64,000 nt of DNA from a bacterium (lineage in GTDB: Bacteria; Hydrothermota; UBA3073; JACQXS01; JAQTXJ01), in contig JAQUPX010000001.1 of the NCBI GenBank assembly GCA_028716385.1, positions 470,775 through 534,774 of the forward strand, in the 5' to 3' direction. Below the pieces are notes generated by a model. It made no database searches, had not been told where the DNA came from, and saw nothing but the letters and a program-made list of their open reading frames with translations. The position numbers were made by a program, and so were the translations under genes. Below are positions 48-59,403 of this stretch, piece after piece (position 1 is the first letter of the stretch; every line of letters starts with the position of its first letter).

Positions 48-896
48 ATGTATCTTATAAAAACTACTTCATCAGGTAACATACTATGGACAAAAACTTT
101 TGGAGGGGATAGTAGTTATTCCTATCTTGGCAATTCAGTCCAACAAACAGAAGATGGAGGATTTATCATTGCAGGAATAAAACAGAGTAGTGAAAATTAC
201 TGTGATGGATATCTACTAAAAACCAATCCAACCGGTGATTCCTTGTGGACAAAAATCTTCGATAGAGACACTTCGGATCATATCAATTCAGTCCGGCAAA
301 CAAAGGACGGGGGATACATTATCTCAGGATATACGGCTTCCCCCGGGATAGGTAATTATGATGTGTATTTAATCAAGACTAACTCAAACGGTGATACTGT
401 TTGGACAAAAACTTTCGGCGGGCCTGCTGATGACAAAAGCTATTCAGTTGAGTTGACAAATGATAGTGGTTTTATAGTTGTAGGCTATACAAAGTCCTTC
501 GGCGCAGGCGGAACCGATGTATATCTCATTAAAACCAATGGAAATGGAGATGTCGCTATCGAAGAACCCTCCTCCAATTGGAGCGAAGCGACATCTTGCC
601 TTGGCGGACCAAACTTAACCGTCTCCCAAAACCCCTTCTCCAAATCTACAGTCATTAGTTACTCTCTACCCGCAAATGTAGGGTCCGTCTCAGGCGGATT
701 TAGTCTTGCGATTTACAACATCGCCGGCAAATTAGTAAAATCCTTTCCAATAACTCAATTACCTAATTCCCAAATGACCACTGTCGCCTGGGATGGCACC
801 GATAATAACGCAAACAACCTAAAAACAGGAATTTATTTTGTGAGACTTGTAACCGGCAACTTTAAAGAGACAAAAAAACTAATATTGATGAAATAA
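48..896 (+). CDS. Secreted repeat protein with C-terminal T9SS/FlgD-like sorting domain (5' end may extend beyond the window)
   Basis: Repeated 'GG..D..YSV..T.DGGFII.GYT' units; C-terminus 'LAIYNIAGKLVKSF...NNLKTGIYFVRLVTGNFKETKKLILMK' typical of sorting domains. Confidence 0.8.
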   Translation: MYLIKTTSSGNILWTKTFGGDSSYSYLGNSVQQTEDGGFIIAGIKQSSENYCDGYLLKTNPTGDSLWTKIFDRDTSDHINSVRQTKDGGYIISGYTASPGIGNYDVYLIKTNSNGDTVWTKTFGGPADDKSYSVELTNDSGFIVVGYTKSFGAGGTDVYLIKTNGNGDVAIEEPSSNWSEATSCLGGPNLTVSQNPFSKSTVISYSLPANVGSVSGGFSLAIYNIAGKLVKSFPITQLPNSQMTTVAWDGTDNNANNLKTGIYFVRLVTGNFKETKKLILMK

Positions 897-32310: not shown

Positions 32311-32749
32311 TTTCTAATAAGAAGCTCTTTTCCCGCCAAGGCGGGGATTAGAGATTCTTATCCAATTCCGATAAATATACATTAAACTGTTTCGGATAAT
32401 ATCTGTTATTCTAATGTTATTTTGTTACAAGGCAAGAAAAATATTTATTAATACCCAACCGTTTTCAGAATAATTAAAATATTCCCTTTTTTTGTAGGAG
32501 AAGAACGGAGTTTATTCCGCTCTAGCGGGATGCCTGCCCATCATTTGTCATTCCTGCGAAAGTCGAAGATCCCGCCCTGGCGGTGGCAGGAATCTATCGT
32601 ATCCAATCTGTTATTTTTTTTGTCATTCTGATCCGCCTCAGGCGGAGAAGAATCTCAGTTTTATTCTTTTGTTATCTACACTATCCCTTAGCTATTGGTT
32701 TAACAAAAAGTGGTAAGGTGAGCGAATTTATTAGAGGGACAGAAAGTGA

Positions 32750-35104: not shown

Positions 35105-36691
35105 ATGAAAAACTTTTTAATTATGATTAACGTTTTTGCAATTGCTTCTTTGTTGTCAGGCGCGCAGCAGAATGAAGTTAAACTTCTTCGCTGGGAAGGT
35201 CCACCGGGATCGAAACCCGGAACATTCAAGGAATGGAATGTTTCTCATCCTTATAAAACATTTTCTACCACATTAACAAAAAAACTTTCTACCCAAAATA
35301 AAGCAGGCAAAGTAGCAATATTAATTGATTCTACAATTGCATCTTCAATTACAAATGAGGTAAATCAATTGATGACTAACTTGCAGCAAGAAGGGTATAC
35401 CGTAAGCAGTTACAATATAGCAGGCGGGACTCCTGAAGACTTGCGTTCGTTTCTCAAAGGTCTTTATGATAACGATAACATTGAAGGCGCTTTATTTGTT
35501 GGAAATTTACCTGTGGCGTGGTTTCAGGTAGGAAATGATTATGGCCCGCCTTATAATTATGGTTATGCGGAATGGCCGATTGACCTTTTTTATATGGATT
35601 TGAACGGGGATTGGGTTGATAGTATGAAATATGGTGGTATTGGCGATAGTTTAGTGTCGGGAAAAGATAGTATTTATGATGTCCATTCGGGAAATATAGA
35701 CCCTGAAATATATATTGGCAGGCTTACACCGACGGGGATTGGAAACGATACTCTTTTGATTAAAAATTATTTTGCCAAAGATAATGCGTACCGGCATCAT
35801 TCTGTCGAATTGCAGCACAGGGCATTGGTTTACGTAGAAGATGATTGGTATGAATATGCGTCAGAATGGGCAGGAGATGTATCATTGCTTTATGATGATA
35901 CCCTTGTAGTTTCTGATTCTAATGCGACTACAGTAACGGATTATAGAATAAAGTTAGATACCCTTAGAGCATGGGTTTCCGTTTTTGCTCATTCCTGGCC
36001 CGGAGGGCATGTATTTTATTACAACAATCATAACTCATATAATTATTACAATGCTACGGAATATACAAATCAAGACCCGCCGGCGAATTTTTATAATCTA
36101 TTTGCCTGTTCATTTGCCAGGTATACGGAAAGTGGATATGGCGGCGGCAGAACTATTTTTAACCAGAGTTATGGAGTCGGCGCGGTTGGTTCAACCAAAA
36201 CAGGCAGTATGCTTGATTTTTATTATTTCTATTTACCCCTTTCGCAAGGCAAAGCTATGGGCGAAGCATTCAAAGATTGGTTCTCTTCTATAACGGCAGG
36301 AGGAGTTAGTTTTGATGATATTTGCTGGCATTACGGGATGACACTTCTTGGCGACCCGTTTCTTAAACCAAAAGGACATAATATTGGCGTAGAAGAAAAA
36401 TGGAGCGAAGCGACATCCCGCCTTGGCGGTGATCAAATATCAAAATTAACTGCTTTCCCAAATCCGTTCGTTCAATCAACAGTAGTTAGTTATACTGTTG
36501 ATAAGAATGTAGGGCAAGGCGGAATTTATCCCGCTGTGGCGGTGAGCCTTGCGATTTATGATATAAGTGGGAAATTAGTTGAAGAAACAAAAGATAACGT
36601 AATAGGGAAAAACTTAAAAACGGGAATTTATTTTGTAAAAGTAAATGATAGTAAACCAATTAAAGTAGTAAAGATGGGAATAGTGAAGTAG
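35105..36691 (+). CDS. Secreted C25-like cysteine peptidase-like protein with T9SS sorting domain
   Basis: 'GKVAILIDSTIASSITNEVNQLMTNLQQEGYTV', 'EGALFVGNLPVAWF', 'VFAHSWPGGH', 'NLFACSFARYTE', C-terminal sorting domain. Confidence 0.7.
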   Translation: MKNFLIMINVFAIASLLSGAQQNEVKLLRWEGPPGSKPGTFKEWNVSHPYKTFSTTLTKKLSTQNKAGKVAILIDSTIASSITNEVNQLMTNLQQEGYTVSSYNIAGGTPEDLRSFLKGLYDNDNIEGALFVGNLPVAWFQVGNDYGPPYNYGYAEWPIDLFYMDLNGDWVDSMKYGGIGDSLVSGKDSIYDVHSGNIDPEIYIGRLTPTGIGNDTLLIKNYFAKDNAYRHHSVELQHRALVYVEDDWYEYASEWAGDVSLLYDDTLVVSDSNATTVTDYRIKLDTLRAWVSVFAHSWPGGHVFYYNNHNSYNYYNATEYTNQDPPANFYNLFACSFARYTESGYGGGRTIFNQSYGVGAVGSTKTGSMLDFYYFYLPLSQGKAMGEAFKDWFSSITAGGVSFDDICWHYGMTLLGDPFLKPKGHNIGVEEKWSEATSRLGGDQISKLTAFPNPFVQSTVVSYTVDKNVGQGGIYPAVAVSLAIYDISGKLVEETKDNVIGKNLKTGIYFVKVNDSKPIKVVKMGIVK

Positions 36692-36811: not shown

Positions 36812-38479
36812 ATGAGAAAACTATTTATTCTATTAATAGGATTTATCTTACCGATACAGATTTTTGCACAGGCGGAAATGTGGGTAGCAAGATATGATGA
36901 ATATGGTCAAGGTAGTGGTGCATTTGCAATGGCGGTGGATGACAGTGGATATATATATGTAACGGGAAGTAGTTTTGATACAATCAGTTTACCTGACTAC
37001 GCAACGATAAAATACAACAGTTCAGGAGACACGATTTGGAGCAGAAGATATAATGGTCCGGATAAATACAGTGCAGATGATGCGTATGCAATTGCAGTTG
37101 ATAAAAGTGGAAATGTATATGTAACAGGGAGAAGCAGTGGAATCGGGACTTATTATGACTATGCAACAGTAAAATATAATAGTTCGGGGGATGAAATGTG
37201 GGTTAGGCGGTATACTTATGGTGGTAGTAATTCTGATGTGCCTATTGCACTCACAGTGGATAACAACGGGAATGTATACGTAACAGGGGAGAGCTGCTCA
37301 GGTGCTGATTTTGACTATGCAACGATAAAATATGATAGTTTAGGCAATACCCTGTGGACAAGGAGATACAACGGACCAAGCAATTATGATGATGATGCTT
37401 CTGCAATTGTAGTAGACGGAGACGGGAATGTTTATGTAACGGGAAGAAGTGCGAGTTCAATAAGTTATGACTACTTGACAATAAAATACAACAGTGCAGG
37501 GGATACAGTATGGGTTAGGAGATATGGGAAACCGGGATATGTGGATAATGAAGCAAATGCAATTGCAGTGGATGATAGTGGAAATGTGTATGTAGGAGGA
37601 ATGATTAATGATACAATTAGTTCTAATTTCGGACTCATAAAATATAATAGTTCGGGAGATACAATGTGGTCTCGGATATATAGCAGGACGACAAAAGGTT
37701 ATGGCAATGCGTATAAAAGAATATCGGCAATTACAGAAGGCAAAGGCAATAAAATGCTATGGTCGTATGATGGAATAACAGCTCTTACATTAGACAAGAG
37801 TGGAAATGTTTATGTAACGGGAATGAGTTATACTTCAGCAACTTATTATGACTGTGCAACGATAAAATACAATAGTTCGGGGGATACAATGTGGGTCAGG
37901 AGATATGATGGACCATCCCATAGAGGAGATGGTGCAAGAGCGCTCACACTGGATAATAGCGGAAATGTGTATGTAACTGGATGGAGTCATGATACAGTTA
38001 CAAATGCGGACTATCTGACAATAAAATACAGCAGTTCAGGGAATGAAGAGTGGATTCAGAAATATGACGGGCCTATAAATGATCAAGATAATTCGTATGC
38101 AATAGCACTGGATAATAAAGGGTATGTATATGTAACGGGAAGTAGTTTAGGATTCACCGGTTTTGATTATGCGACAATAAAGTATTCTTGTGTAGGAGTA
38201 GAGGAAGAAAAATCAAATATTAAAAATCAAAAATTAAATATTCAAATATTTCCGAATCCGTTTGTTAGTAAAACAGTGGTTAGTGGTTCCTCCTCAGGCG
38301 GATTTCGCTCCGCTCAACAAGGAGAAGAGACAAAAATACAGATATATGATATTGCTGGGAAATTAGTAGAAACAACTAAAGATAACATTGTTGGGAAAAA
38401 CTTAAAAAGTGGGATTTATTTTGCAAGGGTGAATGATAGTAAGCCGGTGAAGATAGTAAAAATGTCATACATAAGGTAA
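36812..38479 (+). CDS. SBBP beta-propeller-repeat protein with T9SS sorting domain
   Basis: Repeated 'DYATIKYNSSGDT.W.RRYNGP...A.AIAVD.SGNVYVTG.S' units. Confidence 0.9.
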   Translation: MRKLFILLIGFILPIQIFAQAEMWVARYDEYGQGSGAFAMAVDDSGYIYVTGSSFDTISLPDYATIKYNSSGDTIWSRRYNGPDKYSADDAYAIAVDKSGNVYVTGRSSGIGTYYDYATVKYNSSGDEMWVRRYTYGGSNSDVPIALTVDNNGNVYVTGESCSGADFDYATIKYDSLGNTLWTRRYNGPSNYDDDASAIVVDGDGNVYVTGRSASSISYDYLTIKYNSAGDTVWVRRYGKPGYVDNEANAIAVDDSGNVYVGGMINDTISSNFGLIKYNSSGDTMWSRIYSRTTKGYGNAYKRISAITEGKGNKMLWSYDGITALTLDKSGNVYVTGMSYTSATYYDCATIKYNSSGDTMWVRRYDGPSHRGDGARALTLDNSGNVYVTGWSHDTVTNADYLTIKYSSSGNEEWIQKYDGPINDQDNSYAIALDNKGYVYVTGSSLGFTGFDYATIKYSCVGVEEEKSNIKNQKLNIQIFPNPFVSKTVVSGSSSGGFRSAQQGEETKIQIYDIAGKLVETTKDNIVGKNLKSGIYFARVNDSKPVKIVKMSYIR

Positions 38480-59026: not shown

Positions 59027-59290
59027 AGAACTTATGGCAATAATATTTTTGTTCTCTTCTTTATCATTCAACGTCAATCCTGCATATTCTTTTGCTAATA
59101 GGACTTGGTTCAACAGTCGTATTGCTCAACGCCAAAACTGCAGGTATGTCTCTTTTGGCATTTCCCATTAGCTTAGTAATAGAATATAATTATAAATATA
59201 TATTTCATAAATAATTTCTTAATTATTTCTCAATATAAAACTATAAAAACAATAGACAAGAAAATAAAAGTAGTTTAGTGTAATAAAAAA

Positions 59291-59403
59291 CCAGCCTGGC
59301 AGAGCTGGATAAGTTAGAGCAATGCTTCTACGTTGCAAACTCTAACTAACCTCGCTTTGCCGGATAAGTTAGAGTAATGCTTCTACGTTGCAAACTCTAA
59401 CTA
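59291..59403. repeat. Two tandem copies of a TTAGAGT...ACTCTAA palindromic element
   Basis: Both contain GGATAAGTTAGAG(C/T)AATGCTTCTACGTTGCAAACTCTAACTA. Confidence 0.9.

Follow-up and report, generated by a model that had tools for sequence, protein, structure and literature searches.

What is the short, almost identical stretch that two otherwise diverged genes carry in frame immediately ahead of a T9SS sorting domain, and how did it come to be there? The window, that is, the whole stretch of DNA analysed (64,000 nucleotides), holds both genes on its forward strand: T9SS cargo gene 1 (3–896, 5' end beyond the window, sorting domain at about 630–884) and T9SS cargo gene 2 (P0002; 35105–36691, sorting domain at about 36455–36670). 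The sequence-only reading had placed two copies of a 29-bp unit just before these domains, at 579–607 (TGGAGCGAAGCGACATCTTGCCTTGGCGG) and 36401–36429 (TGGAGCGAAGCGACATCCCGCCTTGGCGG), encoding WSEATSCLGG and WSEATSRLGG, respectively. Both are confirmed at these coordinates, on the forward strand and in frame; they differ at 2 of 29 bases, and both stand a few residues ahead of the sorting domain, which matches TIGR04183 (T9SS type A sorting domain) at residues 208–294 of the gene 1 product and 451–523 of the gene 2 product. A solved-structure profile search gave weak T9SS CTD matches only (8glj, 5hfs); an AlphaFold model of P0002 (4-sequence alignment, pLDDT 31) was not used.

The length and the palindromic nature given to the unit by that reading hold in part. 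The 29-bp match is real, and the inserted unit at 36401 is best read as 32 bp (TGGAGCGAAGCGACATCCCGCCTTGGCGGTGA, 36401–36432; extent from empty-site comparison). The consensus of the unit, here called element A, is TGGAGCG[A/T]AGCGACATCCCGCC-NN-GGCGG-NGA, about 32 bp, with a conserved left end (TGGAGCG[A/T]AGCGACA) and no stop codon in any of the six frames. A palindrome is present as the core CCGCC-TT-GGCGG only; the remainder is not palindromic, the core of the copy in the gene 1 linker has decayed to TTGCC-TT-GGCGG, and both window copies fold no better than their shuffled counterparts (z = 0.26 and -0.06).

With up to 3 mismatches, the 17-mer of the element has 3 matches in the window, 0.03 being expected. 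The third is a variant, element B (TTGAGCGGAGCGAAATCCGCCTGAGGAGG), which lies antisense at 38289–38317 in the first sorting-domain loop of T9SS cargo gene 3 (36812–38479, forward strand, beta-propeller repeats, sorting domain at about 38246–38455) and contributes the peptide SSSGGFRSAQ. Other palindromes occupy the sorting-domain loops of genes 1 and 2: TCCGTCTCAGGCGGA at 684–698, in frame (SVSGGF), with relatives between window genes (e.g. at 1140, 28303, 53852, and 57109), and a palindrome-bearing insert, GQGGIYPAVAV, at 36512–36546, part of which (GAATTTATCCCGCTGTGGCGG) recurs at 32508 and 42813 with 81–90% identity, outside the listed reading frames. A tandem pair of 55-bp repeats, 85% identical, also lies between window genes (59289–59398).

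A search for the unit in coding and non-coding DNA, and a comparison with orthologues, had been proposed by the sequence-only reading; both were done and both support a repeat. Searched throughout the 3.27-Mb genome of the window (G000) with up to 2 mismatches, the 17-mer gives 29 matches, intergenic copies included, vs 0 for a reversed-pattern control. By the reading frames over each copy, T9SS C-terminal regions hold 22 of the 29. Linkers contain 13 sense copies, every one encoding WSEATSRLGG or a close variant, and 7 antisense copies, every one PPGRDVATLQ-like; two antisense B copies lie in the sorting-domain loop and one B copy right behind an ATG. Among the remaining six, L018, L023, and L027 are outside long reading frames (positions including C2:481706 and C5:5884), at least three copies being intergenic; L028 is probably a 5' untranslated copy, L029 is a weak match within a short reading frame, and L019 (MERSNIPLRQ), considered as an element copy, may be the ordinary N-terminus of a gene. 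As T9SS regions make up only 2–4% of the genome, this placement is far from random: the enrichment has P below 1e-25, and T9SS regions are preferred over intergenic DNA too (P 2e-9 or less), both values treating the copies as independent. The element has no match in PLSDB or INPHARED that would place it on plasmids or phages, and one exact match in IMG/VR.

The genome encodes the translocon protein SprA and at least 150 sorting domains by TIGR04183. A model built from the TIGR04183 matches finds 186 of them in 0.6 Mb of this 3.3-Mb genome, which amounts to an unusually large repertoire of cargo, with density figures that derive from stretches picked around T9SS genes and hence from a biased sample; the counts of 29 copies given above, and of 18 (CCTTCGACTACGCTCAGG) and 21 (family B) given below, come from genome-wide searches.

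That the two window genes are recent duplicates, or that their match is due to chance with no repeat family behind it, would agree with the position of both copies in T9SS cargo genes, but this account is refuted and retains practically no probability given the 29 vs 0 matches in the genome, the 3 vs 0.03 in the window, the antisense and intergenic copies, and the diverged flanks. Mean pairwise identity of element copies is 0.91 (sense) and 0.82 (antisense); the flanks of their bearers agree at 0.63–0.66, vs 0.61–0.63 for unrelated empty genes, and for most bearers the best flank partner falls inside the range for randomly drawn empty genes. On a FastTree phylogeny of 185 sorting domains, of which 164 are without the element, the 21 bearers require 21 changes, a parsimony count with unshuffled labels on a tree of 70 columns that, being short and poorly resolved, counts as supporting evidence only. 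A simple duplication of the CTD with the element as passenger is supported neither by the flanks nor by this weakly resolved tree.

Comparison between genomes adds sites with and without the element. The orthologue of the gene 2 protein in the sister species G001 (82% identity) lacks it; in the same slot a GTGGTCAGTGG-type repeat supplies the linker sequence SQLPVVSGQWSANA, and this repeat also fills the G001 sorting-domain loop where gene 2 of G000 bears the palindromic insert. The copy at C4:223150 is common to both genomes and has decayed differently in each, one G001 copy is missing at the matching G000 site, and the family B palindrome stands in place of the core in the G000 copy at C6:216326. 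An antisense copy in a T9SS linker is present in G005, from another family of the same order. Copies in both orientations, in several contexts and in intergenic DNA, together with the element-free orthologue, thus contradict confinement to a single duplicated gene family that never reaches intergenic DNA.

Excision of 32 bp from several sense copies gives back a standard linker, e.g. AGTAGAAGAAAA^ATCAAATATCAAAAATGG. Elsewhere, linkers without the element read K-[S/L]NIKN-QISK and bearers K-[WSEATSRLGGD]-QISK, so that the net change looks like a 15-nt unit replaced by 33 nt with the frame kept. Element A replaces or adds to repeat-like linker DNA and does not interrupt conserved sequence. Direct repeats (e.g. 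CCGAAAT, CAAAAT) adjoin some copies; the targets are already repetitive, and target duplications are not clear.

Frame use is fixed per orientation (13/13 sense, 7/7 antisense) though all six frames are open. Independent insertions are unlikely to end in a single frame per orientation without protein-level selection or copying between linkers, and the pattern leaves room for both. In the copying account, the element entered T9SS linkers on only a few occasions and the remaining copies spread by recombination or gene conversion across the very large cargo family, with short repeats (GAAGAAAAAT / ATCAAATATC) serving as homology. The constant frame in each orientation, the small number of recurring insertion contexts, the in-frame unit replacement (K[S/L]NIKN-QISK to K[WSEATSRLGGD]-QISK), and a few bearer pairs with somewhat similar flanks (e.g. 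C1:471668 and C5:18095) speak for it, as does the repeat CCTTCGACTACGCTCAGG, found 14 out of 14 times in sense and in a single frame. Against it, the flanks of bearers resemble each other on average no more than do the flanks of random T9SS genes, the sorting-domain tree shows bearers in scattered positions, both orientations and the intergenic copies require separate insertion events, and the same type of insertion is seen in the unrelated genome G106; as the main explanation, copying between linkers is a serious contender that we nevertheless hold to be rather unlikely.

Selection on the peptide would mean that WSEATSRLGG and PPGRDVATLQ are useful near the T9SS cleavage/attachment region and are kept for that use. 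Slot and frame use are indeed strict in both orientations, and the peptides in the used frames, as read from the sequence, are net-neutral and hydrophilic. We consider this improbable, as 164 of 185 examined sorting domains do without the element, the orthologue carries an unrelated peptide and unrelated peptides share the slot, and amino-acid changes are tolerated among copies (E to K, S to F, S to N, A to V, R to C).

Several unrelated repeats use the T9SS linker, the sorting-domain loop, and the start codon as general slots. Thirteen-mers common to linkers and intergenic DNA occur in 91 of 148 linkers, vs 47 for dinucleotide-shuffled and 29 for random coding sequence. Of 18 matches to the repeat CCTTCGACTACGCTCAGG, T9SS linkers hold 14, and these share the sense orientation and one frame (PSTTLR), a pattern more easily explained by copying between linkers than by insertion at random. 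For family B, the genome-wide count is 21: seven matches directly follow a start codon (six read M-LS[E/K][A/T]KSASGG or -GR in the printed frame, plus L260 from its ATG), 12 lie in sorting-domain loops (10 antisense, 2 sense), and two stand shortly before a start codon. Many of the loop copies have similar surroundings and probably descend by duplication. In the genes with a copy behind the ATG (L240, L242, L244, L253, L254, L255, L260; M-LSEAKSASGG-KK... type), what follows it in most cases is a hydrophobic N-terminal stretch; two of these genes, L254 and L255, are neighbors in tandem. Further repeat-like strings (GTCATTCCTGCGAAAGCAGGAATCC-, GTCATTCTGA...GAAGAATCT-like) lie in frame in sorting domains at L225/L249, C1:281197, and C5:13997; in-frame examples of repeat-like sequence in sorting domains are SSFVIPAKAGIHF, VCHSDPDLSGEES, and TERSEES.

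We favor, as probably correct, the explanation that element A is a REP/RPE-like repeat, short and non-autonomous, and that its copies enter permissive slots in T9SS cargo genes, where they persist in frame. The element would be mobile at the DNA level and its copies would land in tolerant DNA, mainly the linker between passenger and sorting domain, the sorting-domain loop, and, for variant B, the first codons, where only copies that leave the reading frame open would survive. Such survival would be easy because the element is stop-free in six frames and the linkers are low-complexity repeat DNA with units that can be lost or replaced. The insert would be tolerated as the linker is presumably disordered and close to the processing region, and its presence would be neutral rather than beneficial; some copies may pass between linkers through short-tract recombination. 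A bolder and distinctly speculative extension is that the T9SS cargo genes of this lineage have dedicated, fast-exchanged slots (linker, loop, start codon) that recruit intergenic repeat cassettes in a preferred frame, which would amount to repeat-driven peptide diversification in dozens of secreted proteins.

A scan of 84,980 genomes for the exact 21-mer found matches in two Saccharicrinis genomes, Armatimonadota, Phaeodactylibacter, a Bacteroidales genome, STC_131 (contigs matching those of G001), and Bin_13. The Saccharicrinis genomes hold 17 and 23 copies (up to 2 mismatches), and the copies read are mostly intergenic filler with a longer hairpin. In Bin_13, the distant genome G106, secreted proteins carry the two copies, each directly behind an NPF motif: NPF^WSEATSRLAG^NPGTAIKF contains a clean 30-bp insertion in a domain confirmed by TIGR04183, and NPF^WSAATSRF...^NLSTNI one of 57 bp in a sorting domain judged by eye because part of the record is masked and models gave no match; for both, we infer the empty form from the NPFNPxTxI motif. 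Across the 21-mer loci L060–L078, from Bacteroidota, Armatimonadota, and other bacteria, the left end TGGAGCGAAGCGACATCCCG is shared and the right halves differ. This combination of shared left end and variable hairpin suggests a cross-phylum repeat family without a known mobilizer.

RAYT genes were considered as mobilizers of element A and rejected, since none is flanked by copies: G001 has none, not one of the two RAYT-like genes in G000 and the 30 loci in other carrier genomes lies between copies of the element, and no transposase associated with it emerged from these loci. The repeats neighboring the RAYT-type transposase genes of G000 are other ones than element A. At L081, a RAYT-like gene lies amid GTAG-type REPs (GCAGGTTAAAACCTGCGCCTACC), one of them centered on the palindrome TCCGCCTCAGGCGGA.

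Palindromes within protein-coding sequence are a feature known chiefly from Rickettsia and Wolbachia, and the usual view of them is as selfish DNA that the host tolerates. In the present genome, similar short repeats of several families and in both orientations collect in one definable slot of secretion-system cargo, and dozens of parallel insertions in one genome provide a test bed for neutral tolerance vs selection. The linkers of about twenty T9SS proteins seem to consist in part of recycled repeat DNA, and WSEATSRLGG-like and PSTTLR-like motifs should be annotated as repeat DNA, not as conserved domains. A literature search with the repeat strings, and with T9SS sorting domain combined with linker and palindrome, returned nothing relevant.

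Three known systems invite comparison. Rickettsia palindromic elements (RPEs; Ogata et al. 2000, 2002; described in PMC2229807 and PMC3733652) are 105–146 bp, with long stem-loops and terminal inverted repeats of about 12 bp, and are fused in frame (PMC2229807). As the sequence-only reading had proposed, element A resembles them: it is a palindrome-containing, apparently mobile repeat, open for translation, that is lodged in frame within protein genes and also occurs between genes, and the P0002 orthologue in G001 lacks it; membership of the RPE family does not stand, as element A is about 32 bp, folds weakly, and is concentrated in T9SS linkers in both orientations, whereas many RPEs lie in phylogenetically conserved proteins. 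REPs are 20–40 bp, mostly intergenic, and carry a GTAG or CGTC tag; they are sometimes intragenic, as in R. conorii and Opitutus terrae (PMC3733652). Element A shares with REPs its size, the CCGCC-NN-GGCGG core, the layout of conserved end plus hairpin, the many copies, and the occurrence of some of them in genes, but it has no GTAG or CGTC terminal tag, is intragenic in at least 22 of 29 cases in G000 (the Saccharicrinis copies being mostly intergenic), and is without the RAYT link that REPs often have. Bacterial MITEs fused in frame to genes (reviewed in PMC2229807) are likewise small non-autonomous repeats whose translated peptide joins host proteins; they measure about 100–200 bp, most have terminal inverted repeats and several have target duplications, features not clearly seen for element A. 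With the size of a REP and the behavior of an RPE but lacking some defining features of each, element A is filed under neither family and is described as a new variant of protein-coding short repeat.
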